This document shows, piece after piece, positions 1-64,000 of a stretch of DNA of 64,000 nt (the first letter of the stretch is position 1; the number at the start of each line of letters is the position of its first letter). Both the position numbers and the translations under genes were made by a program. A model generated the notes under the pieces. It saw nothing but the letters and a program-made list of their open reading frames with translations, ran no database searches and was not told the DNA's origin. The stretch is from NCBI RefSeq assembly GCF_036370855.1, contig NW_026991412.1, positions 124,001 through 188,000 on the forward strand. The letters are read 5' to 3'. The DNA comes from Dromaius novaehollandiae (lineage: Eukaryota; Chordata; Aves; Casuariiformes; Dromaiidae).

Positions 1-241
1 GTGTGCAAAAGCTTAGTTTCTCAAGAGCCTGACTTTTCCCAGCGGTTACCCAAAAGACATTCAGAGTTTATCAGGAGCTTCTCTCTCTGGGGATGCAAGA
101 GCACGGAGGCCATGTGCAGCTGACATAAAGTCATACCCAGGATGAGTATTGGGGCACGACACCAGAGAGAAGGGGCAGCGTTGGGCAGTGGAAGGTGGTG
201 ACATCTTTCCATGGAATGCAGGAAGGGCAACTGTAACCTAC

Positions 242-3200
242 CTGTGCTCAGAAAACTCGTACTGTGCTCTCTCAGCCACTGGCTGTCTGCGTTTTCCAGG
301 ATAACACCTAGTCGCACAATGCAAATAAGTAAACATCAAGGCACTTCCTGTGGTAGCCCTAATTCCCAATCTAGTCGCTTCCTGGTCTTGGACAATGGAT
401 GATAGGCTTTGGGGAGCAGGGGAAAGCTAGAAATACCAAACCAGAAGGGTCCCTCCCGCTTTAAAGTTCCTGGGCAGAAGCAGGAGGCAGAGCTGAGCAA
501 CTGTGTGCGCCAGGGGCCAAGCCTAATGTGGAGCACTAATTCCACTGTGCCTTTGCTAGAGACTTCAGCCCCTTTACAGCCTGTAACTAATTCCTCCTGC
601 TGCCACCCTCCTAAGGCAGGTGACTGTCCCTGGTGCCACTGCAGAGAAAGTGGAGATTGTCCTTTGCTGTCTCTTGCAGGGAGCAGCAGAAGAGAATATC
701 AGCTTTGTCTCTTACCAGCTAATTGGATGGCTGCAGTCCGCATCCCCCAACACGAGCTCCAGAAGTAGGTCTGGAGGGTGTCATAGACGCTTTGCAGAAG
801 CTCTGGCATGTCTCTGGCCTGGTAGAAAACAGAGAAACAGGAGTTCTTTGGCTGAAAAGGCCCTGCCATTGACCCTTGGCAAAGAGGGCAGATGAACTAG
901 GAGAGGAAGGAAAGAGACGGAGGCTGCAAGGGACTGACAGTTCCCATCATTGCCATGCTAGTTCCCACCCTACCACTTCCCAGAAGGCCGCTCCATGCTC
1001 CAGGTCTCTGAGCCAGGGAAAGTCACTGCCACCAGGCAGTCTCACCCTGGGCCACAGCTTACTCACCAGGTGACTGCAGACAGCTTCCTGGAGCTCTTCT
1101 GCACTCTTCTCGGTGTTCAGAGCAACTTGGGTTTGCAGCTTCTGCAGGCCCAGGAATGGAGTGCAGAGCAGGAAAGTGCTTCGACAGGCCTGAAAAGGAG
1201 AGTTGCCCCAGCTCAGCCCTCCCCAGGACCAGCGAGGTGCCTTTCAAGGGACCTCATTGAGCTGAGCCCTGCTGTTCTCTTTCAAGAGGGGGGGATGTTT
1301 CACTCAACGCCATTTATAGAAAGGAGAGGGGAGGGATTGCAACAGCAGCCATCGTTCCCCTGGCCTGGTATGTGGCACTCCAGAGAGAGTATCGGTGCCT
1401 GAGAGCTGTCGCCGCACGATAGCTGTTAACTGATGTGCCCTTGGGAGAAGCCCCGGATCTCAGGAAGCAGGGGAGATCAGAAGGGACATGGTCAGCAAAG
1501 GCTTGGAGGCCTGAGCACTGCGGAGTCTGGGAAGACTGTCCTGCACCTCAAACAGAAAATGCTGTTGGAAGAGTTTGAGGTTGTCTTTCCATGCAGAGAC
1601 ATTATCAGGAAGGCCAGTATTGCTCTGCTGTTACCATGTAGCACCCTCCTCATGAAGAAAGAAGTGAAAGGTGGCTCTTACATTGCAAACTTCTGGATCT
1701 GGGTCCTGAAGATGGAGCATAATTCTGGTCCACGTAGAAGTTGTAATTTCTTTGCCGAGAAAAGATTTCCATTTCCTCTTGGCAGAGGAGGCCAGGACTC
1801 CATACAAGGTGAAGGCTGAGGAACGAAGGACTGCCTCGTCCTGCAATCAGGAAACCCCAGTCACCAAGTTGCTGCCTAGGACCCCAAAACAAACATCTCC
1901 TGGCCAGCCAAATGCTGAGCCCATATCCTGAGCAATGGTTCTAGGCAGTTTGTCCAAGGCCAGAGGATCAAGAGAATCCATTTCTTTGAAAGACACCATT
2001 TGGCATCAAGAAAGGGTTGCCTTATGCTGAGTCTTTCCTTGTCCATTGCTCAGCTTCTCAGGACCGTGCCTCCTGAGCTACTGGGCACTTAGGCTTTTGG
2101 TCTCCGAGGTCCTCAAACACTTTACTGGCACCTGACAGAGAGCTAAAAACCTAGAAGCTCTTGGACTCCAAAGTTCCCAGACTCAGAGCCACCTGGCAGC
2201 CTCACACGTTCCTAAGGCTTCAGGGCTTTCACACAGAGACAGCCCTCCAGGTGGCCTGTAAGGGAGTTGTAAACAGTCAGTTTCCATTTCCCTCAGAAAA
2301 AGAAAAAAAACCCCTCAGATTCAAAAGGCTCTACAAAATGGAATACTTGATTCCAGTTGGTACTGCTCTGTGGAAGAACTCCGGCTCAGAAGACTCTGTT
2401 GTGGTCTGTCATACCACAGCATGGGCACCTCTCATGTCAGAGCAAGTGAACTCCCGCCATTTGCGAGGAGCATCTAAGCAAGTCTTCCAGACTGTAGAGG
2501 CCATGGAGAGGAAGAGGCAGTCCAAGGCGCAAGCCCTCCTTTCCAGGGTAGATGCTGAAAAGACCCAGGGTACAGAGCTAGGCAAAGGAGACCCTCAACA
2601 CCCCTCTTCCTCTCCATTGACAATGAAAGAACCTGTGAGGGCTAGACCAGACATGGAGAACTACTGTGAAGGGAGGTGACGTCCTCCCTCAGTGTCCAGC
2701 CTTTCTTCACTCCTTCCCAAGGGCAATCCAAAGGTGATTAGCTCGCTATGGAGCTAGGAATCAGCAGACATCATCCCAAGTCTCATCAGTTTCTCTTCAG
2801 GCTTTTCTAGGAATGAGGCTTCTTCCCTGAACCCAAACAGTCCTCATCTGTGCTTGCTCACATCATACCTTTCAGATGATCTCACAGACTACTCAAACAA
2901 GAGTTACCTACTGCTCGTTCACTTACGACATCAAAGAAAGTCTTGGTATAAAGGGCGATTTCTTTAAAGGTGACTCCAATGTCCTTCTCTCCCAGCTCTG
3001 CCACCACTTTCGCCAGAGCTGACAAACTCTCGCCCACGATCTCAGAAGAGGTGACGTCCTTGATGGCCCTCATTAACGCCTTCAGAATGGCCTTCTTGTG
3101 CTTTCTCAGCTGTCAAAGCAGAAGGCACACAAGAGCTCCTCACCATTCATGCCTACAGCAGAAGTTCTTTACCATTTCTCCCAAGAACAGAATTGGCAAG

Positions 3201-6200
3201 AAACCAGTCCAGAGCACACCTTAGCCCAAGGCTACACACTCTGTCTCCAGTTGCACCTTTGAAGCCAGAGTGATGTCGGAGAATGGAGCATGGTCTTAAG
3301 ACACACCAGAATTTCCCTGTTGTGGTTGGTCCAGCTTCTGTAAGCCTTGTGCAGCTCTTTACCAGGACCTGTCTGGTTAGGAGCTTTCTGTAGTGAGTGC
3401 AAGCTCATGCTCACCTTCTCAGGTGCTCCACTGGCCAGATTGCCCAGGCCCCTCACTGCCATCCGGCGCACAGTGCTGCTGGCATCCAGGGATTTGTCCA
3501 CCAATGCACGGCGGACAGGCTGAAGTAGCTTCCACTTCTGAAGCATTGGCGCCTTCATCAGCTAGGAAAGAGCACCATGACCATTAGCATTAGATTGATC
3601 CTGAGCACTCATGGCACATGCGTAACTGTTCATGGATTCCAGCATGGCTGGGATACTTTCTGCTAGGATCTTCCTGGAGAAAGAGATGGCCGAGACAGCA
3701 GCTTGCAAAGACAACTGCTCTCAAGCCTTCCTTTTCCACCTTCTGTCTTACCTCAGCAAAGAAAGATGCTGCCATGATCCTCAGGTTTGCTGATGGCGAG
3801 TCCAGCCATGGCAAGACAGCACGTATGGTGGTCACCGTGACCACATCAGTTTGGAGGAGAACACTGCACACACAACACAAGAAGACAAGAAGGCGACAGA
3901 GTATGAGGTTCCAACAGTCAGCTGCTGTGATGCAGACGGTCTTCTTTGGCAACTCAGGACAGCCTCCCCAGGCAGATATGCTGGAGAGGTTCCCATCCAG
4001 ACCGTTTCTGGCTTACAGTCACCCCCAAGAAGGAGAGAAGGCCTCCACAAGGCTCTTACCTAGTCAGCAGACACATGCCCTCATGGTATGTCCGGGGATT
4101 TTCAAGAAAAGCCCATGTGTTCTGCTTCCGGAGAATCCCCATGCATTTCTCACTGATGCACTTGCAGAGCACAGTATCTAATGCTTTGATGGAAAGCCTG
4201 ATTGAAAAGAATATACATATGTCAGAATCGGAGCACTTGAGACTGTGTCAGGATCACTGAGGAAGCTCAGCCACTTTCAGAGGCACTCATTAACTTCTTC
4301 CAAGCCCCAGCGAGTAATACTCAAAGCACCCCCTGAAAGCACACTTCATAATCCCAAAGGGCATCAGGCTAAAAGGAAACTGGCATGATCACTCGCTTTG
4401 ATGCCCCCAAACTCACTGAACACAGGGGAAAACCCGGAAGCCTCAACTTCTTTGATGCTAGAACCTGAGGGGTCTTCTGCAGTACCAGAGTACCATTTAT
4501 GCAAAAGATGCACAACAAGGTCCTCCGAGCTGGGGAAATGAATTGCAGTGGGCAGGAATCACCATGCTGTCGCTGCATCACCACTTGTGGGTTCCCCAAA
4601 CAGACTAGTAATGGTAGAAGAGGAGGCCCAGCACAGCTTGAGGGGACAGTCGCCCTTGCAAGGCCAAGAGGTACTTTGTTCTCTGTCATTCATATAAGCA
4701 AAGTCTCTCAGGGTTCATACACCAAAAAGAAAAAAAAGAGAGAGAGAAAAACAAACAGCACCCCAAGCGATGTTTGGAAACCTGCTGTGGCCACTGTCTG
4801 GACAAAGAGAAATTCAGTTCTGGTTTCCTAAGGAAAGGATTAAACATGGTGACTGCAGAAATCTTGTCCATGGAGCACAGAAGCCTCTCTCATAGGAAGA
4901 ACAGCTACCTTCAAGGCTATAAGACTGGAAGGACCAGAAGGATGTCCTGCCATATCCTCCAGTGCTGACAAACGGGTCGACTCAGCTGAAGGCCAGGGAG
5001 CTGTCTCCACTCATGTCTGGTGAGGCAGGAATGTTCCTGCTTTCATCAAACCCCAATCATTGAATAACTGAGACTTTTGATTCAGAAGCACCTCCAAAGG
5101 GGAATAAAATCATCCAAGGATGCCCAGGGAAGACTAATAACAAAGTAGACAAAAACCAAGCCCAAAGAAATAGATGAAACAGCAGAATTCCCTGTGCATG
5201 ACACAGAGTAAACCAATAGGCGAATTTTAGCTGTGCTGAGAGGGCCAGTTCCGCCTTCATTTCTGCTGTAGCTTTTCCTCACCAGGGCCACACAAGATTT
5301 TCTTCAGACTAGCTCCCACCAGCCTACTTTTTCAAAAGCATATTGAGCTCATGCTAGGGCACAAGAGACAACTCACAGGCTTTTTAAGAAAGTGGAGCAA
5401 AGCCTGACAAGAACGCAGAGAGAGGAGACAGACATAGACAAAGACTGGCTTGGTGAGGTGAGCTAAAGCTGCATCCTTCATCTCTGCCCGTTTTGCTCAT
5501 TACCTGCAAGGACTGCTGCCTTCACCACTTGCCACAAGGACTGGCTCGTCTTCAACTCTTCCTGCAGATGAAGGCAGCTCCTTTCCAAGAGTGTTGCTGA
5601 TTTGTTTCAGCAGCATTGGAAACAGCCGTGGCAGCAGGAGAGACACACTTTCCCGGGGCTCCAGGGAATACACCAGCTCACGGAGGGCACAGGTTACCTA
5701 TGAAGAAATGCCGTCACAAACCACTTGGAAAGGAAGAGCTTTTGCCACCACTTACCCCACCTGCCTGCCCGCCTGCCTGGCTGCTCTCCTCTGGAGCTCT
5801 GACTTCTGCCACAAGCTTGTGGATGGGCAACAACAAGCTCTCACAGCTTCTCACAGTGATCAAAATGAGAATGACCCAGCAAAGCACACTGTGAGGCTTC
5901 TGCATGTGGATTTACAAGTGCCTGTGTACCAGGAGGATGTCCAACCCCTCGCTTTCATTCCACGGGATCCTCAGCCAAAGAGGGGCAGAAATGTCACTTC
6001 ACATACCATGAGAGGCTCCAGCGCAGCCAGATTGTCGCTCCCTTCCTCATCGAGGCAGTTGCTTCTGGCGGGGGTGTCTTCAGCGCTCTCCAGTTTGCCC
6101 ATTAGCAACTGGAGCATTTCAATTGCAAAGATGCCTCTGCCAAGAGTCCTCCACAGCTCCACGGTATCACTGCAGGTGAACAGTTTACCCGTGATCGCGT

Positions 6201-9200
6201 GTACTGTTGGGCCTGCAGCCCCTCAAAGGCAGGTTAAATACTCCCCCCCTCCCAGCGCGGAGCTTTAGCAGCCCCAGTCCCTGGCAAGTCACAAGCACAT
6301 GCTCTGGCAACAGTCGGACTTTTCTCCTCGGGGAAAGAGACAACTGGCTGCTGAACAGAGTCCCCTCTAGTGCCGCCAGGCTGTGGCGTCTCTGGGCTCC
6401 TGAAGTGGAAGGAGAGGGGAGGGGAACCTACCTGTCCATGGGCAGGTGTCTCTGGAGGAGGCTGTTGGTTACTGCCTCAGGGTGATAGCAGCCCAGGACA
6501 GACACTGCCTCAAAGAGGAACTCCTTCAGGCTGCCCTGCTGAGCAGCTGGCAGATGATCGTAAAGGATTGTCAGGATTTCTGGCACCTGGAAGGGACAAG
6601 GAAAGAACAGCAGGTTGTTTTAGGCCTTTCCTAGGGCTTCCCTTAAAGCCAGACCAATTCTTCAGCACATGAGCAAGTCCTGCTTCCTTGACCATTTGTC
6701 AAGATCTCACCCTAAACTTCAGCCCTACCACTCCACACAGTGGAGGGTTTTCTTTTGGGTCTAAGTGTGCTCCTTGCCCTCTCACGCACACAGATGTGCT
6801 GTCATTGCACATGCCTTGGCTCCCTTCTGTTTTCAGCTTCTCTTCTCATGCACACAAAAGACATTTTAACGTTTCACCCAGAGCAGTCTGAACGCTTCTA
6901 ACTATGTGCTTGAAATAAGGCAACATCAAGACCTAACACATTCTTCACACCTTCCGAAGATACCATGCAGTGCCTGCACAAGGGCCTTCAGGTCCTTCCT
7001 GGAGGAACCAGCTCTCCAGGGATACTTGTCCTTGCCTCCAGCCTCCTCATTTCTCATAGATTTAACACCTTCCCCAGAGGGAACAACTTTGCTCTGGAGG
7101 AAGACATTTGGCAGATCCTTTCACCGCCAGAAACTGTGGCCGTAGCCTGCACAGAGCAAAACTACTCACTTCTCCTGTGGATGACAGCCATCAAGACACT
7201 ATCTGTCTGCTCTTTTTCCCCACAGGACAGACACCAAGCGATCTGCTGACCACGTATGAAAGGAACAGAGCCCAGGAGAAAAGATGGCTGGCACCGTTCA
7301 CCAGTGGACCCCGAGACGCAGCACAGACCAGAGAAAGGGGGGGGGCTCTACTAAATTGTGTCTATCAGATTTGCTCCTTCTTGGCACTGTGTCTGGAACA
7401 GTTGGAGACTTTGCTCCAGAAGGGTTTGTATTGCTGGTACCAGATGCACAGTAGCTCTTGGATTAGGTTGCCAGGACTTCAGCTGGATAAACAAGACATT
7501 CTTGGCTCTGCATGCAAGATGCATTTCTGCAGACCACAGCAGCTAGACAAGGGGTAGTGCAGCAGCTCAGTGTCAAAGTTCCAACTCTAAAGATAAACAA
7601 GGGGTGTTTTACCTCCCGCAACATTTCTCTTCCACATTCCTTCAGGAAGATGAGCATCCACTCGCCTGCTGCCCGAGCACAAGTGGGGCTGAAGGACAGC
7701 ATGCTGCCCAGGACAGCCTTCAGAAAGCCTCTTGCCTGCTCTGAGCAAAAGGATTTGCATGCAACCTGGAGAGAAATGAGAAACAGGAGAAACAACATCA
7801 GAAGTCTGCTTCCTCTCTTACAAGCAAAGGACAAGAAAACTTGAGCAGCTTCTCAGTTCAGCCATTAGCTAATCCTGAAGGTGGCAGGTGCTTTGTATTC
7901 CAATTGCACATACAACTTCTTCTTTTGATTTATGAAGCTCATAGAGTTGGAAGGCTCTTCCATGAGGTCGGTTGCTTGCCTACACAACTTATGTTCTTAA
8001 AATAACTCTCAAGAGCTGGCAAGCTAATACATGTTAAAATAAAGAGAAAGCCATCGGGCTAAGGAACTTCCCTGCTTTGCTTCAACAGCTCACTTTCCCC
8101 AGATGGAGAGTGTTTGGGTGTGGATGGATGAAAACAAACACACAAACTCATAGAAACTTCATGGAGTCTACTTCTTTCCCCAGTGGGAACGCTAGATATT
8201 GTTATGCTTCAAAACCCTCTTACTACTTGCTAACAACAGAGGCCCCATTGCTATAGGCCACTCTGAAAGGGGAGAGAAATCTTGGAAGTAAAGAAGAGAA
8301 AAGTGATGGGAGCTGAGCCACCAGGTAGCCACAGCTCTGGCTTTGGAGTCAGTAACCTTTGCGATTTTGGAAGAGGTCCTCAGCAGCGAATCCACATCTG
8401 CGGCCACTAGCTCCTCACAGAAGTGATTCAGATCCACTTCCCTTGTGTGCATAACCTTGCCTAAAAGAAACACAGGTGGGAAAGGATAGGCACATTTTCT
8501 GAAAATGAACCCCCAGTCCACAGCCATTGATCAAGGAATCACCAAATGGTGGTAGGGAATTCCACAGGGGTAGTGCAGGACCCTTCTGAACTCTGGGTGC
8601 AGCATTTTACGAGTCAGGCCATCAGATTCTGCTCTATGCCAGTCAGAAAAAACACTCTCCTTCTCCTACAGCAGTTTTCAGACTATACCTATTGTCCTCA
8701 ACTATGGCTCCTCTTTTTCTCAGCCCCTCCATCCCATGTGCAAGCACAGGTCACACCTATCCTCTGACTGGGAGGAGGGTCTCCATAGATTCATCAGTGT
8801 GGACAGGTGATGCTGACCAAAGTCCACTCCAGAAGCCCAGGTGTACAACTCCCTTCTAAACAATTTCTCAACTGGGATCATTACTTTGTCTCTACAAAGC
8901 TAGAAAGTGCTGTCCTCTAATCCTTGGTGCCTGAGAGTGCTGCCCTGAGACAGAAATGTGGGAGGGCTCTCATTCTCCACAGCACCCAGAAGTGCCCCTG
9001 AGGCAAGGCTGCTCAGAGAACTTTCCCAGGCCTCCCTTGTGCTATGGCCAGGAGGGAAAAGAATGACCAAGGTCTGGATGCAAGAAACCAGCAGTCTGCT
9101 GTCCATTACTCTTCTCCTCTGGCAATGGAGCCCCCTCCCTGCACATTGCCTCTGCTGCCAGACAGGGAAGAGAGGGAAGAGCAGGCGGAAGGAAGTGGGA

Positions 9201-9345
9201 AGCAATGACTGTTCTTCTCACCTTGTGTTGAGAGAAGGCAGCTGATACAGTCGACTGCCCGCTGGCGTGATGTGGCCAGGGAGTCACAGCTGAGAGGCCC
9301 CAGCACTCCAATCATGGAGCCAAACTGCTCAGAAGAGTTTTCTCT
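242..9345 (-). CDS. MROH-like: Copy A, C-terminal coding exons (residues about 1021-1660)
   Basis: Exons in transcription order: 9345-9222, 8460-8357, 7765-7613, 6586-6432, 6169-6007, 5697-5504, 4197-4060, 3863-3752, 3561-3415, 3109-2927, 1840-1682, 1189-1067, 818-716, 307-242. This is the most conserved part of the family: VPEILTILYDHLP, HLPMDSDTVELWRTLGRGIF (the junction of two exons), SLLLPRLFPMLLKQISNTLG, LSIKALDTVLCKC, NTWAFLENPRTYHEGMCLL, VLPWLDSPSANLRIMAASFF, LLQPVRRALVDKSLDASS, RAIKDVTSSEIVGESLSALA and FTLYGVLASSAKRKW. These are Maestro-type HEAT repeats. The final few dozen residues come from the last exon, outside the window for copy A and shown at 43,439-43,542 for copy B. I saw no base difference between the two copies in any of these exons. 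Confidence 0.88.
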
Positions 9346-12300
9346 CTGGTAGAAATCAAAGAAAGAAGAAAGTTCTCAGGCTGCAGGAGTGGCCCTTCAA
9401 CCTTCTCCTTCTGACACTGACTCCTGACCCACAGCAGGGCATCTGGATCGACAGAAGCTCAGCTTTATCCTCCCAGGAGATTAGCAACCCAGAGCACAGC
9501 TCTGAGCAAACCTCCCTGCCAGGGAAGCAGAAGGGCTTAAGGAGCAATGCTGTCTTGGTGGCAGATGGGTGCTGAGGTTAGGGCAGAGCTGCAGAGAAGA
9601 CCTGCAGGGCCTCCTGGCTCGCCAGGGCTGCCCTCGTCTTGGTTCCCCGAGAGACTCCAGCTGAACCCACAAGCACTCCCAAAGAGTTTTGGGAAGAGGG
9701 AGTCAATACTCACAGCATCCTCCAGTCTCTCGGTGTAAGTCTTTAGCAGATGAGTGCAGGCATAAAGGGCCCTCTCTCTCTCCCACTCTTTCCCAGAACG
9801 GAGCCAGGCCTCTAGGAGCTGTTGGAAGACCACAGCTAGATCAGGGCATGCATCGTTTGCACGCACACACACTCACACACACACACACACACTCCTTTAC
9901 AGTCTCCCACCTTTTCTTCCCCCAGGAACCACACTAAGGATACATTGGCCTCCATGGGAATTCATCACCGCTGTGAGGTACACAAACACTGAAGGCTTCT
10001 TATATTAGTGTATCTGATACTTGCACACAGCACTCACTCATCAGCAAAGATTGGGAGTGCCTTGTATCCGTCCACCATGGCCATCTTGGCAACAGCTCCC
10101 ATTGCAACATGCCCTGACAACCAATAACACAACTCCTACAGCCACGACGGGCCATAGTTTTCTCCACCTCCAGGGAAGAATTGCATGCCTTGCACCTGCC
10201 TCCAGAGCATCTCCTATTCTCAGATGATCCCCTAAAGCGTGAGGCCCTCCATCCTTGGCTCTCCTCTTGACAAAAGAGAGTTTCCCTTTCTCCTCTTTGC
10301 TACTCACGTGAAAGGTTTCCTTGAGCCATGACAAGGTCAGCTCTTCCTCAAGACTTGTCATGAGGCGAGCAAGAGCTTCCAGGGATCGTGTATAGAGAGC
10401 CTAAAAGCAAGAGAGAAGGAGTGGTAGCTGAAATCAGAGAGCCTCAGAACTCAGCCAGAGTCCAGAGCCTCAGCTCTGCCAGCATTCAGTGCATGATAAG
10501 GTGCAGCTCTGAACATGCAGAGCAGCAGAGGGGGATTGACAGCTACCTCTGCATGCTCAGCATCATCTGCTGCCTCCCCTTCTTTTGTCTGCTCAAGGGG
10601 AGGAAGGGGAAATAGGCTTCGGAAGCACTCCTGAAGAAGATGACAGTTTTCCTTCTGGGTCAGAGATGGCTTGATCTTGCTGGCAGAAGACAAAAGAAAG
10701 AGTTCAGAAAGGACACTTGCTACTCTTTGCCAGAGGGGGTCCAGTGGCAGCTAGAGTTCATCTGAAGCTGGAGCCCCAGTTCCCAACACTGCTGTTCCAT
10801 GAAGAGGGAGCACTTCCGCCAACTCCCATGGATTCTTGCCCATCAGACTCCCAGCGTACAGAGAGCCGGGAGCTCTCTTCCCCCAGCCAGCCAGCCAGCC
10901 AGCCAGCCAGCAGCCTTTCTGCAGCCCAGACCACTCTCTGTTCCACACTTCTCCAATCTACAGCCTCAGGCCATCTCTCTCCAACACTGGGCTCCAGGAT
11001 CTGTACCGCATCACATCTTCCAGGATCATACAAAACGGGGACCATCACCTCACCCCACACCAAAGGCAGCTTCTCACCCCACACTCAGGTCAACTGTGAA
11101 GCTTCAATCAGCTCCTCTGTGACATGCGGAGGAAAACCCAGCACACAGGAGGAAAAGCCCTACCTCAAGTGCTCCACCGCAAGAATTGCCCTGTAGCGAA
11201 CGGGAGAAGCCACGCAATCCAGGGGCTCCTGCTTCATGAAGTCCTGCAGGTCACAGAGAGACAGGTACACAGAGGTCAGAGGGCAGGAAAGAAGAGGGCC
11301 TTGCCTCAGCAAGAAGAGCAGATTCTTCTTCCGCGCGTGTGGCTAACACAGACAGCCTCCATGCAGGTTTCTCCCAGAACTGCCGGAAGACCGCAGCTCC
11401 AGAGAGGACAGACCCACTGCTCTTCCCAGGGATCACCCACAAGCTGGCAGCACAAGGGACCCTAGTGTGCTGGTGCCTAGGCCTCGGACACTCCCAAGTT
11501 TGCCCAAGGCCTTTCTCAGCCCACAGAGAACAGTGCCTCTCTGAGGAAACCCCTCTCAGTGCACAAACTCTTCTGCAGGACAGCCTCTCTCATTCCATGT
11601 CACTCACCAGCACAAGCTCCAGCAGCACCCTCTTCGAAGCAAAGCTGAAGTTCTCACAGGTGCCAACGCCTTGAAGGGCGCAGCTGACTTCTGTGACACT
11701 CTGGATTAGGGCCAGCTTGAGTTCTGTGTCCTGAGGACCAGGAAAGAAAAAAAAGGTGACATAGATGAGGAGCTGTTCAAAGGACCAAAGGCCAAAAGAT
11801 TAACAGGAGGGCCAAAAGATCAACCCAAGGGCCAAAGCTACTCTCAAAGTGCTGCGGAGGGAAGAAACTGCATCCTCCAGGAGCCTAGGGGGAAGGGCCT
11901 CTGGGTCTTATTTCAGTGGAAGGAGATCTCTCCTGGGATCCTAGGAAGACATGGACTACCTGGAAGCAGAAAGGAGCTTTCCCCAGCTTCCTACCCAAAA
12001 GAGAGCCCCCTGGACTCTGGCCCAAGGCAGTGGGGAAAGCAAATCTGGAACAACGGAAACTGGAAATGGGAGAAGGGCAAGGAGCAAGGCTCATTCAGGG
12101 AGCATTTACTGGGGCTGGGAAAGTGATGCCCGGTGCCTGCAAGGTGCAAGGAGAAAGAGTGAGAGTCGGGGAAACAGAAAACACTAGTATGCGAAAGACG
12201 GCAGCAGTTCAGATTACCGCCAACACTACGAGGCTGCAGAGACTCATCTGGAGCCCTCTGTCCCCTGCATGGGGAGCAACGGCTAGAACTGGACCTGGGA

Positions 12301-24899: not shown

Positions 24900-24911
24900 G
24901 ATGTCGATGCC
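24860..24911 (-). promoter_or_regulatory. Start-codon exon with an upstream splice acceptor
   Basis: On the minus strand a pyrimidine run followed by CTGAG ends at 24,912, giving a good acceptor just 12 bases before the ATG at 24,897-24,899. This predicts a short exon holding 12 bases of 5' UTR and 13 codons, and one or more upstream non-coding exons, plausibly starting in the CpG island at 26-27 kb. The donor is CCCAG|GTGACC at 24,859. Phase at this donor fits the next exon exactly. That first exon and the transcription start were not located. Confidence 0.6.
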
Positions 24912-26040: not shown

Positions 26041-26091
26041 CCTAGCGAGTATTTTGCAAGGGGGGCAGGAAAGCGCTGCGCCCTGCTCCTT

Positions 26092-26204: not shown

Positions 26205-26255
26205 GCCGCCGGCGGCCACCGCTGCGTACGAAGACCGTTGCGGGCAGCCGGCGCA

Positions 26256-26983: not shown

Positions 26984-26984
26984 G

Positions 26985-42650: not shown

Positions 42651-43289
42651 TATGCTTAAATAGGAATTGAAAGAAACTCAGAAGCAGCCTCTTGAACGGC
42701 CTGTTCTTTCTCTGCCCTTTTGTGAAGATCGCTTTGCATTGAAAGCCGCAGGACCCGACCGTTCAAAGACAGCCCTAGCAGTACTCTGCTGTCTCACATT
42801 CTTTCTACTGACTGGCATTTGCTTGGTGAGGAGTACAGGACTCCTGCGTGTGCGACACACACAAGTATCCTCTGAACAGAGGCTTGGGTGCTGGAAGTAC
42901 TGGTGGGCCTCTGCTGAGCTTTCTACATGGCTAAGGAGGGGCACCAGAGAGGAGAAGGTCTTCCAGTCAGTCCTTACTTCCACACGGCTGGGGCTGTAAA
43001 AAGCAGAGCCAAAACACACAGGAATGGCCAGAGGCTGCTACTCCAGACTCCAGAAAGCGAATCCCCATCTGGCCAGAACGCAGTCCCCCCCCCACAGACA
43101 AATATGCTCTGGAATCACTCGCCCACCTCACGGTGTTCAAGGTCAGCTCCAGACGCACAGCCCTCTCCAGCTCCCCCCCATACAGACACAGCTCAAGCAC
43201 ACTGCCAGCACAGCTGGGCCACGCACACAACAGCCCTGCTTTGGCCAGTGGCTTGTCAAGAGGCCCTCCACCCCAAGGAAGCACCTCGT
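42651..43289. other. GC-richer flank downstream of MROH-like copy B
   Basis: Base composition changes sharply near 42,650 from AT-rich spacer to the GC-rich type seen in the MROH introns. No HEAT-like exon or other known coding segment was found between here and the poly(A) signal at 43,314. It may be the 3' flank carried with the duplicated unit, which cannot be tested because the matching part of copy A is outside the window. Confidence 0.45.
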
Positions 43290-43438
43290 GGATTTCTGTT
43301 CAATAGGCAATGTTTTATTTCAGTCAGCTGATTGCACTGGCTCCGTGGTAACACTCTGTGGACTGCCTGCTCTTGCCTTGCCTGTCTTGCCTTCCCGCTG
43401 CTCACTTTCTGCACTCAAAGATGTTTTTGGAGGACCTC
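43290..43438 (-). promoter_or_regulatory. 3' UTR and poly(A) signal of copy B
   Basis: About 120 bases after the stop codon the minus strand carries the canonical AATAAA hexamer at 43,319-43,314. Cleavage would be expected some 10-25 bases further, near 43,290-43,300. This gives a very short 3' UTR of about 150 bases. The exact cleavage site is inferred. Confidence 0.65.
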
Positions 43439-43542
43439 CTAGTTGCTCCGAAGATTCCTGAGCTCCACCCAGTTGTCTCTGAGGACTTGAGCTGCTGCCT
43501 GCTGCACACTGGGATGCTCGTCTCCGTGGAACAAGTGGAGAG
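43439..43542 (-). CDS. MROH-like: Last coding exon of copy B with stop codon
   Basis: A TTTTCAG acceptor at 43,543 opens an exon that, in the phase set by the exon at 44,096-44,161, reads LHLFHGDEHPSVQQAAAQ, then VLRDNWVELRNLRSN and a TAG stop at 43,441-43,439. The segment PSVQQAAAQVL is the usual final HEAT-like helix of MROH proteins. The matching exon of copy A lies left of the window start. Confidence 0.85.
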
Positions 43543-52500: not shown

Positions 52501-54736
52501 AAAAAACACTCTCCTTCTCCTACAGCAGTTTTCAGACTATACCTATTGTCCTCAACTATGGCTCCTCTTTTTCTCAGCCCCTCCATCCCATGTGCAAGCA
52601 CAGGTCACACCTATCCTCTGACTGGGAGGAGGGTCTCCATAGATTCATCAGTGTGGACAGGTGATGCTGACCAAAGTCCACTCCAGAAGCCCAGGTGTAC
52701 AACTCCCTTCTAAACAATTTCTCAACTGGGATCATTACTTTGTCTCTACAAAGCTAGAAAGTGCTGTCCTCTAATCCTTGGTGCCTGAGAGTGCTGCCCT
52801 GAGACAGAAATGTGGGAGGGCTCTCATTCTCCACAGCACCCAGAAGTGCCCCTGAGGCAGGGCTGCTCAGAGAACTTTCCCAGGCCTCCCTTGTGCTATG
52901 GCCAGGAGGGAAAAGAATGACCAAGGTCTGGATGCAAGAAACCAGCAGTCTGCTGTCCATTACTCTTCTCCTCTGGCAATGGAGCCCCCTCCCTGCACAT
53001 TGCCTCTGCTGCCAGACAGGGAAGAGAGGGAAGAGCAGGCGGAAGGAAGTGGGAAGCAATGACTGTTCTTCTCACCTTGTGTTGAGAGAAGGCAGCTGAT
53101 ACAGTCGACTGCCCGCTGGCGTGATGTGGCCAGGGAGTCACAGCTGAGAGGCCCCAGCACTCCAATCATGGAGCCAAACTGCTCAGAAGAGTTTTCTCTC
53201 TGGTAGAAATCAAAGAAAGAAGAAAGTTCTCAGGCTGCAGGAGTGGCCCTTCAACCTTCTCCTTCTGACACTGACTCCTGACCCACAGCAGGGCATCTGG
53301 ATCGACAGAAGCTCAGCTTTATCCTCCCAGGAGATTAGCAACCCAGAGCACAGCTCTGAGCAAACCTCCCTGCCAGGGAAGCAGAAGGGCTTAAGGAGCA
53401 ATGCTGTCTTGGTGGCAGATGGGTGCTGAGGTTAGGGCAGAGCTGCAGAGAAGACCTGCAGGGCCTCCTGGCTCGCCAGGGCTGCCCTCGTCTTGGTTCC
53501 CCGAGAGACTCCAGCTGAACCCACAAGCACTCCCAAAGAGTTTTGGGAAGAGGGAGTCAATACTCACAGCATCCTCCAGTCTCTCGGTGTAAGTCTTTAG
53601 CAGATGAGTGCAGGCATAAAGGGCCCTCTCTCTCTCCCACTCTTTCCCAGAACGGAGCCAGGCCTCTAGGAGCTGTTGGAAGACCACAGCTAGATCAGGG
53701 CATGCATCGTTTGCACGCACACACACTCACACACACACACACACACTCCTTTACAGTCTCCCACCTTTTCTTCCCCCAGGAACCACACTAAGGATACATT
53801 GGCCTCCATGGGAATTCATCACCGCTGTGAGGTACACAAACACTGAAGGCTTCTTATATTAGTGTATCTGATACTTGCACACAGCACTCACTCATCAGCA
53901 AAGATTGGGAGTGCCTTGTATCCGTCCACCATGGCCATCTTGGCAACAGCTCCCATTGCAACATGCCCTGACAACCAATAACACAACTCCTACAGCCACG
54001 ACGGGCCATAGTTTTCTCCACCTCCAGGGAAGAATTGCATGCCTTGCACCTGCCTCCAGAGCATCTCCTATTCTCAGATGATCCCCTAAAGCGTGAGGCC
54101 CTCCATCCTTGGCTCTCCTCTTGACAAAAGAGAGTTTCCCTTTCTCCTCTTTGCTACTCACGTGAAAGGTTTCCTTGAGCCATGACAAGGTCAGCTCTTC
54201 CTCAAGACTTGTCATGAGGCGAGCAAGAGCTTCCAGGGATCGTGTATAGAGAGCCTAAAAGCAAGAGAGAAGGAGTGGTAGCTGAAATCAGAGAGCCTCA
54301 GAACTCAGCCAGAGTCCAGAGCCTCAGCTCTGCCAGCATTCAGTGCATGATAAGGTGCAGCTCTGAACATGCAGAGCAGCAGAGGGGGATTGACAGCTAC
54401 CTCTGCATGCTCAGCATCATCTGCTGCCTCCCCTTCTTTTGTCTGCTCAAGGGGAGGAAGGGGAAATAGGCTTCGGAAGCACTCCTGAAGAAGATGACAG
54501 TTTTCCTTCTGGGTCAGAGATGGCTTGATCTTGCTGGCAGAAGACAAAAGAAAGAGTTCAGAAAGGACACTTGCTACTCTTTGCCAGAGGGGGTCCAGTG
54601 GCAGCTAGAGTTCATCTGAAGCTGGAGCCCCAGTTCCCAACACTGCTGTTCCATGAAGAGGGAGCACTTCCGCCAACTCCCATGGATTCTTGCCCATCAG
54701 ACTCCCAGCGTACAGAGAGCCGGGAGCTCTCTTCCC

Positions 54737-54781
<45 letters not shown>

Positions 54782-57700
54782 AGCCTTTCTGCAGCCCAGA
54801 CCACTCTCTGTTCCACACTTCTCCAATCTACAGCCTCAGGCCATCTCTCTCCAACACTGGGCTCCAGGATCTGTACCGCATCACATCTTCCAGGATCATA
54901 CATAACGGGGACCATCACCTCACCCCACACCAAAGGCAGCTTCTCACCCCACACTCAGGTCAACTGTGAAGCTTCAATCAGCTCCTCTGTGACATGCGGA
55001 GGAAAACCCAGCACACAGGAGGAAAAGCCCTACCTCAAGTGCTCCACCGCAAGAATTGCCCTGTAGCGAACGGGAGAAGCCACGCAATCCAGGGGCTCCT
55101 GCTTCATGAAGTCCTGCAGGTCACAGAGAGACAGGTACACAGAGGTCAGAGGGCAGGAAAGAAGAGGGCCTTGCCTCAGCAAGAAGAGCAGATTCTTCTT
55201 CCGCGCGTGTGGCTAACACAGACAGCCTCCATGCAGGTTTCTCCCAGAACTGCCGGAAGACCGCAGCTCCAGAGAGGACAGACCCACTGCTCTTCCCAGG
55301 GATCACCCACAAGCTGGCAGCACAAGGGACCCTAGTGTGCTGGTGCCTAGGCCTCGGACACTCCCAAGTTTGCCCAAGGCCTTTCTCAGCCCACAGAGAA
55401 CAGTGCCTCTCTGAGGAAACCCCTCTCAGTGCACAAACTCTTCTGCAGGACAGCCTCTCTCATTCCATGTCACTCACCAGCACAAGCTCCAGCAGCACCC
55501 TCTTCGAAGCAAAGCTGAAGTTCTCACAGGTGCCAACGCCTTGAAGGGCGCAGCTGACTTCTGTGACACTCTGGATTAGGGCCAGCTTGAGTTCTGTGTC
55601 CTGAGGACCAGGAAAGAAAAAAAAGGTGACATAGATGAGGAGCTGTTCAAAGGACCAAAGGCCAAAAGATTAACAGGAGGGCCAAAAGATCAACCCAAGG
55701 GCCAAAGCTACTCTCAAAGTGCTGCGGAGGGAAGAAACTGCATCCTCCAGGAGCCTAGGGGGAAGGGCCTCTGGGTCTTATTTCAGTGGAAGGAGATCTC
55801 TCCTGGGATCCTAGGAAGACATGGACTACCTGGAAGCAGAAAGGAGCTTTCCCCAGCTTCCTACCCAAAAGAGAGCCCCCTGGACTCTGGCCCAAGGCAG
55901 TGGGGAAAGCAAATCTGGAACAACGGAAACTGGAAATGGGAGAAGGGCAAGGAGCAAGGCTCATTCAGGGAGCATTTACTGGGGCTGGGAAAGTGATGCC
56001 CGGTGCCTGCAAGGTGCAAGGAGAAAGAGTGAGAGTCGGGGAAACAGAAAACACTAGTATGCGAAAGACGGCAGCAGTTCAGATTACCGCCAACACTACG
56101 AGGCTGCAGAGACTCATCTGGAGCCCTCTGTCCCCTGCATGGGGAGCAACGGCTAGAACTGGACCTGGGATACTGCTTGTGCTTCGGGTCTCTGACATCT
56201 CAGACAAGTCCCCCAAAACTCAAAGAACACCAGCAATGACACGGGGATATATGTCAAAGGGATAGAGTGGCAGGTTTGGAACTGGAGATCCAGGACTCTT
56301 GTTGAGAGCAGATCTTTCCAAACAGATGCTCTGTCCCAGTAAGCTCCGGTTCAGAGGAGGGCGGGAGCTAGCTCTAGACTAATTGTCCCGACACCGAGCA
56401 TTCACAGCTCCTACCTGAGGGCTGGTTCTGTACTGGCACAGGATGTTCTCTACAATGTCCGTCTCGACCCGGGCAAGAAGCTGCTGCTTGGGTGCATGGA
56501 GTGCTATTTTACTGTAGATGAGCATGACAGCAGCAGCTGTCTTTGCTCCGTTCTCCTTCTGGTGCTCCTGGAAAATTGGGAAAGTCAGGAGGATTCAGTC
56601 GAGCCTCTTCATTTTACCTTAGACTTCCCCTTTGCTTCTAGCTGAGAAACTGCCTCCAAACAGGTACGAGCTTGCCTTTTTCATCCACACTTCTCAAAAC
56701 ATTTCACCAAGTAACTCTTCAATGCCTCCGTTAACTCTCTGGGAGAGAGCTGTTCTCCCTCCCACTGTCTCCCTCTCTTGTGTCTAAGAGCTGGAACTCT
56801 TAGACAAAGGAGGGCTGAAGTGCAGAACCTCCTTCCTTGACAGCACCAGGAGTTTGAGCACTGCCCATTGACCATCCCTCATTTCCATTTGCCAGCTGAA
56901 CTGAAACCACACCCAACACTGTTCCAATGGCCAGTTGCTGTTTGTTGCCACTGCTGGGGAATTTTGATCCATGACTTTGTAATGGGATCTGTCCTGAAGA
57001 CGCCTGAAGCACCAGAACTCCTGGCTACAGGCTTCCGGCAGTTCTTACACAAGCAAAGAAAGCCAAGACAACAGAGAAAACCTGCTTCCCTTACCTTCTG
57101 GAGGGTGAAGACCCTAGGAAGTCTCCTATTCTCCCCAGCAGCAGCAAAGTCGTGGACTGTCTTCAAGGCCAGGTCGAAGTGGCCCTCAGCAGAGGATGCT
57201 AACACCGAAATCGGTCCCTGCAACACAAGGGAAAGAGTGAGTCTGTTTCCATCCCACACATTCATCCCTTTCAAGCTTTCAAGCATATTGCCTGAGGGAA
57301 TCAGCAGGAAAAAGCTCCAAGTCAGGCAACGAGATCCAAGCTGCCGAGGGAAAACTGGAGAGCGCAGGGATAGAGAGCACCCACCTCTCTCTCAGAAGGT
57401 TCCAGACGTCTGACTCTTTCCAAGTAGCTCTGCAGCTGTTCTTCAATGTAGCTGATGTTCTGAGACGCTGCCAGTGCTCCCCCCACAGCCTTATAGAGGA
57501 AATTCTGAAAGAGAAGAGGCCAGCGCGAAGAGGTTGCTAACACAGCAACCTGTCATCACTGGAGAAGCGGAACACCCAGCTACCACCCCATCTCAAGGAC
57601 CAAGAGACAGCCAAGGCACCAAGACTACAAAAACAGCCCATTTCTTGGCCCAATCCAGTTACCAGCTCTATACAGAGAATTAAAGGAAGAAAAAAAAAAA

Positions 57701-60700
57701 AGACATTATGTAGGGCTGAGAATAGGAAGCAGTGAAAAGCAACTGTATTGAAAAAAACCATGCAGGGAGAGAAGCATCCTGTGGCTCTGCCACCAAACCT
57801 CTCAAGGAAGAAAAGTAAAGACCAAGTCTTAGCAGAGGACCAACCTTCTCCTTGGAAAAGTTTGGATAGTGGGCCATCTGCTGAGTTAACTCGCCATTCA
57901 GCTTCATATTCCAGGTCTCATTCTTTATGGCTTCCAGAGATGTTCTCAGGAACTATGGAGAAAACAAAAAGTGAAGCAAATGCTTCCTCAGGTTTTGTCA
58001 AGGTCTTTCTCTCATTCCAGTGTAACAAGAAGGTGTCTGGGGACAGCTCACACTACGGATAATCCATCTTCCCTTCCCACCCCTTTAATCTGCCCCAGAC
58101 CCTTCTTCCAATATGCAGCTAAGATCCTTCTGGGTCTCAGGAAACTATAGAGAAAGAGGCAGTGGCGCTTTTAGGACAACAGGCCCAAGTTCTGGGAGAG
58201 GACAGGCTTGCCCAAAACCTCACTGCCAAGACCCCACCTCCCAGCTGTCATAAAAGAACTCTGTACCTGCAGCAGACGGCACTCCCATTCTGCATAGTCC
58301 AGGGAGCTCTCATCTTTTCCTGGGAAACAAGAGGACACAACAGCAGGTCATCTGATTACAGTGAGCCCAAAAGAAGCATCCACACGTCTCCTTTGGAAGC
58401 AAAAAGTCCAGCATTCCCAGGCTACCAGCTCCCAGAATGTACCTGTTCTGTCAGGGCTCAAAGGCAGCTACTCCACCAGCCCCTTTGTGAGTCCAAATGC
58501 ATAAGGTATGTCCAAGTCCCATTTGTTCAGGACCATGGAATCAACGCTGGGGAATACTGACTGCTGGTCAAAGCAGCTGTCTATTTCCTCACAGGAAGAA
58601 AAATGAGGCAGAAGGGCCTTTCACAACCAGCTGGAGCTTAGTGCAAGAGAGAACTGCCACTGCCAAGCTGGACTCGACTGGTGACTCTGAGCTTCCAAGG
58701 AGAGGGCAGTGCCACAAAATCTCCTCAAGGGGGAATGTAACCACTCACAAACACTGTCCAAGCAAGGGTGGGAGGATGCTGCCAGAGCCTGCCATTCTGA
58801 TGCAATATGCCAGGCTAAAGCCCACACAGGGATCAGATTATTTCAGGAGCATTACTTCTCTCAGCTGTCAGTTCCAGCTCCCTGGAACTGGGAGGGATGA
58901 AGAACAAGACAGCTTTAAGACACTCAAGGGCTCCGTTGTCCTCAGGCACTCTGGGGACCTGCCTTTTCCTGACTTCCCTTCTGTCCTCTTCAAATCAATC
59001 CCCTCCCAGCGGACACTTTACCTTCAAGGTACTGCAGCAAGGAAGGGATCTGGGCCATCCAGGGAATCCCCACCGCTCTGTGAATTGCCCTGTGAAGGGT
59101 CTTCAGCAGCTGCAGGGCAACAGCTCCATGGCCACCTCCTTCATAAGGAGAGCAAGCAAGCACCTGGAAGAGGGAAGGAGAGAGAATTAGAGCTCCAGCC
59201 TGACAGAGGAACAGCAGTTTGTCTGAGAAAGGAGAGGGGCTTTGCAGGTGCCATGGCAGGCAGCACACAGCAGAACTGCTTCTCTTTTTGCACTGCCTCC
59301 CTGAGGAATGGCGCGTCCTTGCTATTCGAGAGGTCCACACTGGGAATGCCCAGGCAGTCCTTGGAGGGCAAGACGCCCTCCAGCAGGCTTGTTCCTCCCT
59401 GAAGGCTGCAAGCATCTGCCTTGAAAGCAGTCTCCATCCGGAGCTCTCCCCCTTTCCCTTGGTCAGGAAAACTCTGCCCCGAGGAGTCCCCAACTACTCA
59501 CCAGGAGACGTACCAGCAGAGCCTGGGGAGTTGGCAGTTTGGCTGGAAAGAGAAAGAAAGATCCATTTCAGCAGGCCAAGTCCCACACAAGATGATCACC
59601 CGTCCATCCCAGGCAAAGCCTCCAGGACAGGACTGAAGGGGCCTGATAATCTGCTGATAAATTTGCCTTCCCCCAGCTTTTCCCATCTTAGGGTATCCAT
59701 GCAATTAACGTGCCGAAAGGAAGGTAACTCCCCAGCACTGCCAGCAAGGAGTCCTCCATTTTACAGGGAGAATGCTGAGAAATGAAGAGCAAAGCATTTT
59801 CTCTGGGAAATGCAGAGGAAATTTCCACAAAGGAAATACAGGGCAGGACTCCCTGTCACCTAGCAGAAGGGCAAGGCTGTGCTGTTCACTCTTCCCAGCC
59901 TCCCAGTTGGGTCTGCCAGGGGACAGAGACACACACAGGCTCAGCCTGTCCACCTGACAGAGCAGGACAGAATACTTTGGAAGTTTCTCTCTTTTACCGC
60001 GTTCTTGGTAGCACAGGTAATTGGGTTCCTCCTTCTCTTCTGCTCTCTCCTGTCTCTCCACGAGCTCCCTGAGGCAGCGGGAGAGTGGGACCAGAGTGCC
60101 AGTGTACTGAGCTGGCACTACGAACTGGAGGAGCCTTGGCCATAGGAGCTGCAGAGCAAAATACAGCAATTCAGCACGTCATTCTTTCCATCCCTTCAAC
60201 TCCTGTTTTCATAGTGGCTGTCCTCTGTGGCTATGACCCAGCCCCTCCACTGTTAGCCCTCTCCAGGGCATTACTTCATGTCTCTCCCACCCTTTCTCTT
60301 CTGTCTCTCTTCCTTCTAGTCCACTGTCCTAATCCCCACTTGAGCCCATCTCTTGGACTGTTATTCACAAGGCTTCATTTCCCCTCTCCTCCGACAAGAC
60401 ATTCTGGTAGCCCCGTGCTCGGAAGAGCTTGTCAGCAGGGAGGGGGAGGGCTAGAAGAAGGTATCCTCAAGGCAAGGAGTAGCACCAGGTGGTGGGATGA
60501 CTTACTCTTGTCATGCCGCTTGCTGAGACGTCCAGGGTGTCGAGGACATGTAAGCAGAGAGTTTGAAGCGCGGTCTCTGCCACTGCTTCCCTCTCAGAGA
60601 GGTTTCCTGTCTCCTGCAAGACACAAGTTTGAAAACACTCCCATCAGCTACTGTTTCTTCAGGAAGAGGCTAGAGGCTTCAGTAGGAGACTTGGCTTTTG

Positions 60701-63700
60701 CTTTGGGAGCACAGGTCACCTGAGGTAAGACAATGGGAAATCCTATAGTAGGGGTCACATCCTGGACTGCAAGGAAAACTACACAGAATGCAGAGAGAGC
60801 AACTGCCTGTTTGCAATTACCCAACCAATGGGGGTAAATGGTTTATTCGCGACAGCAGATGCTCAATGGCCCGAGCTCTGTTTTAATGACACCAAAGAAA
60901 CGCTCTTCAGAGGAGTTCTGCTCAATTCCTGCACTGAAAGGAGAGCAGAACTGGCCCCAAGGACAAGGAAGAGGAGGTGGGAGTTCTTGACACGCTTCTC
61001 CTTACAAATGCAGCCTTCAGGAGCCTCACAGCAAATGACTGAACAAGAGGAAAGGCACAGCCAAAGCCAAGAGTTTCACCAAGTCCTTGTTCTGGTGAGC
61101 CACCTACAAGGAGTCATTCCCTGTGGACCTGGCTGGCAACACCTAAGAAAGAGGTGCCTGTGGTCCCTTTGTTTCCAGAAAGCACACAGGGCCCGAAAGC
61201 ACTGCATGGAGGGCAGGACAGGTTCGGACAGAAATATGGAGGACAAGGAAAGAACTGGAGAGCTTTTCCGGCTTGTCCTGCTTAGCCCACAATTTCTGTC
61301 TTTTGCTGATCATCCATCAGCAGTTCAGAAAAGACTTGTCCACCTTTGTATCCTGCTGAGAATCCACTTTTCCAGGGTGGCTTTTGCCAAGCAGTTTTGC
61401 TGAAATCCCTGGCAGCACCACTGCTCTTTTCTTACTCTCCCACGGTGCCTCCCATTGCATGACATGGTGGTGTAGCACCACAGCCGCACCCTTGACAGCA
61501 ACAGAGAGACCCACGATTCAAGTCGGTTGGGATGCTGATGAGGTCATGGCACCAGGCACTCAAGGGCTGCTGCTTGGGGGCCTCCACATTTTCAGGGAAG
61601 CTCAGTGCAGTAGTCAGTGGACAAAAGGCACAAAACAAAGCCCCAAATGTCACATTCTCCTCTTACCAGTCTGCTGGTGGCCCGACTGAACTCCCTGAAA
61701 ACATAGGCCACCAGACCCCAGGCCGAACAGTTCTCGACACCAGAGCTGAACAGTTCCTTGATGAAACCAAGAACAGCCACCTTCACCTGCCGGGGAGGAG
61801 ATTGCAAACAAGAGTAACCATGAGTCCTTCTCTCCGAAGCAGGAAACATATGCCTAGGCTAGATCCAAACTGCGTAGGGAAATGCTTCCCCTGTCACTCA
61901 TCAGGCTACCATCCCTTCCCCAGCCACCTCACCTTACTCCGGTGGTCTCCAAAGACAGTTTCCACTGCCTTGACAACCAGGAACATGTTCTTTCTTATCG
62001 CCATTGCTGAAAGGAAGTACAGGTACGTTGAGGCAGAGCCCACCCCTCCAAAAGAGCACTGTCAAAATGTCTCTGCTTTCTCATGGACAGCTAGACAGAA
62101 AGCACGGGGCCAAAATCTGACTTCAGGGGAAGCAGCAGAAGCCAGGAGCAACAGGGACTGCCTAACACAGAGAGTTAGAAAAATGGGATCCACACTGGAA
62201 TTCACTACTCTTTATGCTCGGAGTGTTACTGAGCTTCAGCTGTCACCCCTGACGAAGCGTGGTCAATAACTATCCAGACAGACTGCTCGGCTGGGTTTGA
62301 TACGGTTGGAGACTACAATTCATTTGGGTAACATAGTCTTTGTAAGCACCCACGCATTTCTGTGCTTCACCCTTTCTCAGCTGAAACATGGTAAGGTGCT
62401 TGGTCCACACTAAGCGTGTGCCCTCCATGGATTTTGACAAGGCTGCTGGCCTGTTTCTCAGAGCTGAAGGGGACTCGGGCGACTTCTGAGATACCTCAGG
62501 GAGTGTGCACTTCTTGTGCACTCAGGTTGCAGAGGAGTCTGGTCTACCACAGCCCAACTGCACAGCCTGAACACCTCCTCTGATCAGGCTCTGGCAGTTC
62601 ATGGCTTCAGCTCTTGGCTGTTTCTGCTCGTAGTCCCTCAGCCAAAGTACATCATTCCTCCTATTTTCTTCCTAGTGTTACTTACAGTCACAATGAACAA
62701 AGAATCTCAGCAGAGACAGGGCTGCTATTCTAGAAGCCTCGTTCTCAGCCTCCAGTTGTGAGTACAGAAACTCCATGGTCTCCTCAGGGAAGCTTCGGGC
62801 TGGAGGGAAGAAATCATGTTCTAGGTTAACAATCAAGCTCTTCTCCCATTGCAGAGCTTTCAAAGAAACCACAGCCAAATTCTGTTTTCTCCTTACCTAG
62901 TAGCAGCATGCAGTGGCACAGCTCTGTTTTATGGCCAATGCGGTGCTTCTTGGTCACATCCGAGAGCTGTGGGAATGAGGTACGTTTTAGGATCAGTCTT
63001 GAGAGAGACTGAAAAGAATCGCTCCTATGAGGTCTTGTCTCCCTGGGGACTCACAGGGAAAGATGCCATTCAAGAAGGACAGTGCTCTGTCCTCTCAAAG
63101 CTGTCTTCTGCTTCCCCCCCACCCTTCTGTCTCTCTGGAACTCTACGGAGAGGCCAGAGATGAGCTTGTGCTCTGACAGACAGCTTCTAGATCCTGGAGT
63201 CAGAGATGAACACCTTCCTGAGCGTCTTGTCAGCTCCACTCTAACGCTCCAGAGGGAGTTTGAGCCTACGACAGGGGACCCACAGCCAAAACAAAGGCTA
63301 CGCCCTAGAAGCAAGAGCAACCTTTGAGTTCCAGTCAGTTCCGCAGCAGCAAAAGGCCGTTAGGATACAAGGGCTGGCTGGGATTCCAAGGCTCAGCTTC
63401 AGCTCTCTGGGCTCCAGATTCCTCCTGCTCTCTGCCCGAGCAGGAAACTCCTTTGTGAACTGAGCTGTCCCTGGAACCAGGCAAAGCAGCCCTGGAAAAG
63501 TCCGTGGGCACCTGGCCGGAATGGGGGCCTCAACAGCTGCATGGACCTGACTGCAAGGTATGAGAAAAGCCCAAAGGAGGGAAACTCTGCCCTGCCACCC
63601 CATGGGTCTTTCCTGCCAACCAGAGGCAGACCTGCTAACCCAGAGGGAAGTGCAAGATGTTCAGCCCCTGCTTACCTGGTTGTGCACAACAATGCAGATG

Positions 63701-63768
63701 ATAAAAACTCTTTCCCTGGGGATAAAGGGCTCAGTTTTCTCCACAGCTTCCAAGAAATGCCTGAGACG
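43439..63768 (-). CDS. MROH-like: MROH-like HEAT-repeat protein gene, copy B (5' end runs off the window)
   Basis: Near-identical second copy, same strand, head-to-tail with copy A. Exons in transcription order: 63768-63676, 62966-62897, 62799-62686, 62006-61933, 61786-61667, 60613-60506, 60148-59998, 59542-59502, 59163-59022, 58319-58267, 57952-57845, 57504-57385, 57217-57095, 56567-56415, 55600-55478, 55113-55034, 54533-54401, 54254-54162, 53672-53568, 53199-53076, 52314-52211, 51619-51467, 50440-50286, 50023-49861, 49551-49358, 48051-47914, 47717-47606, 47415-47269, 46963-46781, 45694-45536, 45043-44921, 44672-44570, 44161-44096, 43542-43439. They correspond to copy A exons shifted by 43,854 (left of the CCAG repeat) or 43,870 (right of it). 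No exon base differs from copy A as far as I can see, so this copy is open from residue 352 or so to its stop. Its first six or seven exons should lie past base 64,000. Confidence 0.88.
53718..53746 (+). repeat. (CA)n microsatellite, unit B
   Basis: Same length and same interruption as the tract at 9864-9892, as expected for a very young duplication or a duplicated assembly. Confidence 0.9.
54737..54780 (+). repeat. (CCAG)11 microsatellite, unit B
   Basis: Eleven tandem CCAG units at the position matching 10,883-10,910, a gain of four units relative to unit A. It is intronic and causes the change of offset between the copies from 43,854 to 43,870. Confidence 0.95.
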
Positions 63769-64000
63769 CTACAAGAAAAAGTGAAAACGAGAGGGTGGCT
63801 TGTGAGTGAGAGCAGCTCATTAACACAGGACAGCATGCCTCCACAGTTGGCTGTTCTCTGCCCTGAAAAAACAGGCAGTATCAAGCCTCCCCCTCCATCT
63901 GTGTGCGACTGTCTTGGCTTCTTCTCTAACAGGTTCCCAGCTCCTCCAGGAACTCCCACAGCTCCCTGATCCCAGCACACACTCACCCATACAGCCACAT

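Follow-up and report, generated by a model that had tools for sequence, protein, structure and literature searches.

Near-identical 20-kb segments of emu DNA as parts of a probable young, subtelomeric-type head-to-tail array of MROH2B-like gene units

The 64,000-base stretch of emu DNA analyzed here (the window, C172:124,001-188,000) holds one complete and one incomplete unit of what we regard, with a probability of roughly 0.87, as a genuine young head-to-tail array of a subtelomeric duplicon, homogenized by exchange. Each unit comprises an MROH2B-like gene, a CpG-island promoter, and an AT-rich spacer (Table 1; unit positions given below follow the numbering of the window). The unplaced contig C172, 227,340 bases long, carries 4.4 such units head to tail, and C181, likewise unplaced, carries about 7. 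Most likely, the array is real and young and not merely two haplotypes pasted together, and what had been noticed as a suspicious pair of sequences becomes a mapped multicopy locus.

Comparing the window with itself by BLAST, we obtained a single direct match of 20,134 columns, between 1-20,118 and 43,855-63,988. The near-identity of these segments reported in the first-pass annotation was borne out, as they differ by 5 substitutions and one 16-base (CCAG)4 insertion. Base-by-base comparison placed the substitutions, in the left and right copies, respectively, at 5350/49,204, 9006/52,860, 11,033/54,903, 19,440/63,310, and 19,670/63,540, and the additional 16 bases of CCAG in the right copy at 54,766. 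A "small change" that had also been noted at the right end proved to be a 6-base deletion and 1 substitution in the right copy at 63,989; the alignment continues beyond it, and with this change a more diverged stretch of the last unit (unit 5) begins. Since the overlap amounts to 64,000 - 43,854 = 20,146 bases, all of which are homologous, the reported ends are those of the window and not those of the repeat. A 20-kb duplication separated by unique sequence was rejected because the spacer also recurs, in a unit of ∼43.8 kb. The 16-kb spacer, which had been thought to be either the true intergenic spacer or an assembly join, is neither a join nor unique; it belongs to the repeat unit and is present in units 1 to 4 of C172.

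Table 1. Features of the window, in window coordinates
Feature	Positions	Strand	Basis or remark
Full repeat unit (unit 4 of C172)	1..43854		Arbitrary cut point; period 43,854 b
MROH2B-like gene of unit 4, coding part	1..23992	-	Pfam domains on ab initio exon model
(CCAG)n, unit 4	10883..10915		7 full repeats, same in units 1-3
CpG island, presumed promoter	26001..27500		G+C 0.71-0.85, CpG observed/expected 1.0
18-bp GC-rich minisatellite (CGCTCCCCCCGCCCCTCG)n	26661..26981		Within CpG island
AT-rich spacer	28001..42400		Mostly 30-45% G+C; in C172 units 1-4 and at 7 C181 places (probe 33,000-36,500)
MROH2B-like gene of unit 5, 3' part to window end	42400..64000	-	Homology to unit 4
Unit 5, last on C172, first 20.1 kb	43855..64000		Continues to C172:193,355 (unit position 25,519)
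(CCAG)n, unit 5	54737..54785		11 full repeats, the 16-base difference
Start of more diverged part of unit 5	63989..64000		6-b deletion and one substitution

The genome searched comprised 271 contigs with a total of 1,468,444,375 bases. With 2 kb of the gene (window 21,000-23,000) as the gene probe, 63 matches were scored, 21 of which were full length at 96 to 100% identity: 5 on C172, 7 on C181, and one each at C1 right, C1 left, C2, C3, C5, C6, and the small contigs C132, C249, and C188. The other matches were diverged or partial, and the same probe gave no match when compared with phage records. On C172 the full-length matches lie in one orientation at spacings of 43,783, 43,799, 43,737, and 43,864 b; on C181, again in one orientation, the spacings are 43,852, 43,942, 43,685, 43,660, 43,911, and 43,677 b. 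Both contigs thus hold three or more head-to-tail copies, as a tandem segmental duplication or gene array does. The earlier proposal of a head-to-tail MROH unit with a period of ∼43.86 kb, lying in a longer array, was confirmed by these 5 matches on C172 and 7 on C181 at ∼43.8-kb spacing. With the spacer probe (window 33,000-36,500), for which 40 of 427 candidates were scored, we found whole copies at 4 places on C172, at 7 on C181, on C3, and at C1 right, copies lacking the first 6 bases of the probe at C2 and C1 left, and partial matches at C6, C5, C249, C177, and an interstitial C1 site near 180 Mb.

Contig C172 starts inside the array, at unit position 7,320 of unit 1; its complete units 2, 3, and 4 measure 43,799, 43,737, and 43,854 b, respectively, and unit 5 stops at position 25,519. 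Units 1 to 4 differ pairwise by 0.19 to 0.62 substitutions per kb (0.55 to 0.62 among units 2, 3, and 4), and unit 5 differs from the other C172 units by 1.6 to 2.3 substitutions per kb. Noncoding DNA was as alike as exons, as had been claimed for the introns of the window: 12 of the 78 variable sites among C172 units fall in modeled exons, and the spacer probe matched at ∼100% in all 4 places on C172 (40 of 427 candidates scored). Unit-specific indels were present, with unit 3 lacking 145 b at 28,148 and unit 4 lacking 40 b at 29,805, and between fixed anchors the promoter minisatellite is 212, 230, 312, and 322 b long in units 1 to 4. Among the C172 units, 38 substitutions are private to unit 5, of which 33 lie at unit positions 20,127 to 25,494 and 5 in the preceding 20.1 kb. 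In unit 2, eight substitutions are clustered at unit positions 3,056 to 6,199 (approximately C172:39,520-42,663), perhaps marking a tract converted from another copy; the contig does not include this part of unit 1, which may thus share these eight differences.

Related copies lie near the ends of large chromosomes. The six copies on chromosome-sized contigs (two on C1, one at each end, and one each on C2, C3, C5, and C6) are located 188 to 468 kb from a contig end, and all six have the same orientation relative to that end, as is characteristic of a subtelomeric duplicon shared by several chromosome ends. The plus strand of the window runs toward the end, and the gene, on the minus strand, is therefore oriented away from it. 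At their right ends, C1, C2, and C6 have (TTAGGG)n telomere repeat, which was absent from the first 600 b of the left ends of C1 and C3 and from the outermost bases of C172 and C181. As mapped by the two probes, the gene-to-spacer distance is 31.8 to 31.9 kb at both ends of C1 and at C2, 32.9 kb at C3, and 31.9 kb in the window, and these distances indicate that the four copies are the same spacer-plus-gene block. The C3 copy groups with C172 by the spacer probe but not by the gene probe. We infer that C172 is itself subtelomeric. Its array would be the tandem form of a subtelomeric duplicon that is also present near the ends of several large chromosomes, and in the chromosome-end copies the 5' end of the gene would face the chromosome end.

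Array edges were located on both contigs. On C181, of which selected parts were compared, the array extends over ∼305 kb from edge to edge and contains 7 units. Its left edge, at 104,672 (unit position 26,856), falls within the 18-bp minisatellite, and to the left of this edge lie a second, diverged copy of the promoter (102,535-103,651) and a spacer fragment. At C181:104,600-104,671, the sequence joined to the minisatellite resembles by eye the reverse complement of the start of C2 and is probably another repeat common to contig ends. On C172, unit homology ends on the right at 193,355 (position 25,519), 1.1 kb away from the minisatellite and not within it; beyond this edge, 13.5 kb without a unit match is followed by a promoter region of 91 to 93% identity that begins at 206,882 and contains a minisatellite of 94 b. 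Exon peptides E1 to E7, compared with C181:98,001-104,700 and the C172 tail, gave 0 matches for all 7 peptides at E values of up to 1, and thus no neighboring MROH gene body is seen in those stretches.

The array may be real and C172 nevertheless represent a second haplotype of the C181 array that was left unpurged, that is, one locus with alleles of different lengths, and to this we assign an even chance. Consistent with it, C172 is short and begins inside the array, and the two contigs have the same right edge: their last units are 99.72% identical over 10,000 b, including the 137 b past the array edge over which the shared flank was compared, while the last unit of C181 is 99.12 to 99.14% identical to the remaining C172 units. 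Bit scores of the spacer probe argue against it, placing C172 (6305 to 6314) nearer to the copy at the C3 end (6301) than to C181 (6204 to 6227) among the 40 of 427 candidates scored. So do the array-marking sites 20,577, 24,034, and 24,046, at which all 4 of C172 units 1 to 4 are distinct from the sampled C181 units (4 of 7), although alleles could carry such variants too. At two of the three marking sites, 24,034 and 24,046, the state found in the last unit of C172 is that of C181, and the separation of C172 and C181 is therefore not clean at the edge.

Exchange, beyond recency, presumably keeps the units alike. Units of one array would resemble each other because exchange, by unequal crossing-over or gene conversion, is more frequent within arrays than between them, and the outermost unit would undergo less exchange and diverge. 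Such unequal exchange or conversion within the array accords with the combination of near-identical units, array-marking variants, patchy differences, and divergence of the outermost unit. Recency alone, i.e., a very late expansion from one unit without continuing exchange, appears unlikely to us. It would agree with the 0.19 to 0.62 substitutions per kb found in gene and spacer alike across units 1 to 4, but the patchiness of the differences argues against it: unit 2 has its cluster of eight at 3,056-6,199, and the last unit, after 20 kb of near-identity, diverges in steps, as would be expected from conversion tracts or reduced exchange at the edge.

The promoter minisatellite may be the place where units are joined. 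The left array edge within it, its variation in length, and its G4-type motifs, which are on the minus strand, all point to the promoter; the right edge lies at a distance of 1.1 kb and provides no confirmation. Alternatively, template switching or break repair at the G4-rich minisatellite, rather than unequal crossing-over between promoters, might have produced the joins; we consider this doubtful. The G4-type motifs speak for it, as does the left edge, which is fused straight into the minisatellite beside the second diverged promoter copy and the piece of spacer; against this, the right edge lies outside the minisatellite, and the edges of one array cannot tell such joins from unequal crossing-over. 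Adjoining the minisatellite is AAGATGGCGGC (window 26,986-26,996), which we take to resemble a YY1 site; it points away from the MROH gene, and the CpG island may thus start transcripts both ways.

The weakest alternative, a false duplication in which the assembly joined both haplotypes of a single-copy locus into an apparent pair, is highly improbable: the few substitutions between the window copies (5 in 20.1 kb) and a short, unplaced C172 (227,340 b) whose right edge is in common with C181 would suit it, but two haplotypes give at most two copies, whereas 4.4 units on C172 and about 7 on C181 lie in tandem, with private indels and with minisatellite lengths that differ between units, so that neither a two-copy state nor a lack of unit-specific structure was found. 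Of the joined haplotypes considered in the first-pass annotation, what stands is that C172 and C181 may be two haplotypes of one locus; as the sole cause of the pair, a two-haplotype join is contradicted by the 4 to 7 successive, distinct units, with their unit-specific indels, on two contigs.

In vertebrates without functional PRDM9, such as birds and canids, recombination is described as gathering at promoter-like features, including CpG islands (PMC5519329), so that a CpG-island promoter would be a natural exchange point. A speculative extension, which we rate as rather improbable, is that in the absence of PRDM9 a promoter with a GC-rich minisatellite would serve as an exchange point that multiplies and homogenizes its own gene unit near chromosome ends. 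If such promoter-driven amplification takes place, array ends should show a minisatellite breakpoint and a gradient of divergence in the outermost unit.

The gene itself was assigned by its domains. In three hand-typed pieces of a crude ab initio exon model, we found PF23221, PF23210, PF21047, and PF23227 in the expected order and far above their curated cutoffs, and such family-specific HEAT domains identify the gene as MROH2B-like. Among 10 single minus-strand open frames compared with Pfam, 2 exceeded the cutoff of an MROH domain (PF23221 and PF23227), 4 matched MROH below the cutoff, 1 matched only HEAT and 1 an unrelated family, both below the cutoff, and 2 had no match. The 3' end of the unit 4 gene lies to the left of the window, at the equivalent of about 42.4 to 43.8 kb in the window, and the 3' limit of the unit 5 gene (42400) was set by base composition and a HEAT match below the cutoff. 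No indel was present in the modeled exons of the three complete units, and the sole stop-creating change seen, at 25,433 in the last unit, falls in the low-confidence second exon of the model.

A diverged paralogue located close to the end of C14 served for comparison with the predicted gene. Within the 4 kb of the C14 copy that was read, where 6 of the 7 peptides (E1 to E7) fall in the compared stretch, six exon pieces comprising 269 codons were open in both copies. This comparison gave a dN of 0.20 and a dS of 0.33, a ratio of 0.61 (one-sided Fisher P of 0.006, from rounded counts), which suggests weak constraint on the predicted MROH2B-like gene. The function of MROH members is given as unknown in a paper on human MRO (PMC5391009), and in penguins MROH2B is listed among spermatogenesis genes with single-nucleotide polymorphisms under divergent selection between two species (PMC11371425). 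The emu gene shares the order PF23221, PF23210, PF21047, PF23227 with the MROH2B branch of the MROH family; in contrast to that branch, it is amplified in tandem and subtelomerically.

Blocks that are common to chromosome ends, lie in one orientation, expand in tandem, and are homogenized within arrays are known from human subtelomeric duplicons and gene-bearing macrosatellites such as D4Z4. The emu array has the same sharing among ends, orientation, tandem expansion, and within-array homogenization; unlike those systems, its unit is 43.8 kb long with a many-exon gene, and the lineage and the gene differ. In the complete chicken genome, multicopy genes occur in the heterochromatin of dot chromosomes, with testis bias on 7 of 10 dot chromosomes, and the W chromosome carries 52 tandem copies of a 5.6-kb unit with HINT1W (PMC9974502). 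As far as that account goes, the testis-expressed amplicons of chicken likewise place many gene copies in a bird genomic region rich in repeats, but they are pericentromeric or W-linked and contain other genes, e.g., an olfactory receptor (PMC9974502), whereas the emu copies, judged from sequence, lie near the ends of large chromosomes in a 43.8-kb unit with a predicted gene. The term MROH is absent from the main text of the chicken paper (PMC9974502), and no MROH array in birds was apparent from the title or the start of the abstract among the matches listed for the open-licence PubMed Central literature.

Work on MROH copy number, expression, or population variation in this genome would go wrong if the array were mistaken for a single gene or for an error of assembly. 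The two arrays, together with the chromosome-end copies, offer a clean system for measuring exchange within arrays versus that between chromosomes, and the same system suits a test of promoter CpG islands as exchange points in birds.

Several minor features were observed in addition. The spacer contains a (CCCTTC)n hexamer array (window 36,969-37,033) and, on the minus strand at 38186..38786, what we take from its translation to be a CR1 LINE pol-like fragment. Three copies of a second MROH-related family of ∼79% identity lie on C181 (846,729-920,355) at intervals of ∼36 kb and in the opposite orientation, with further copies on C270, C152, C54, C194, and C249 and near the end of C14, and one of 76% identity on C1. 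Finally, the gene probe has a partial match at C16:16,978, and the first 600 b of C16 appear by eye to start within MROH promoter-like sequence, as if the assembly had broken off in another copy.
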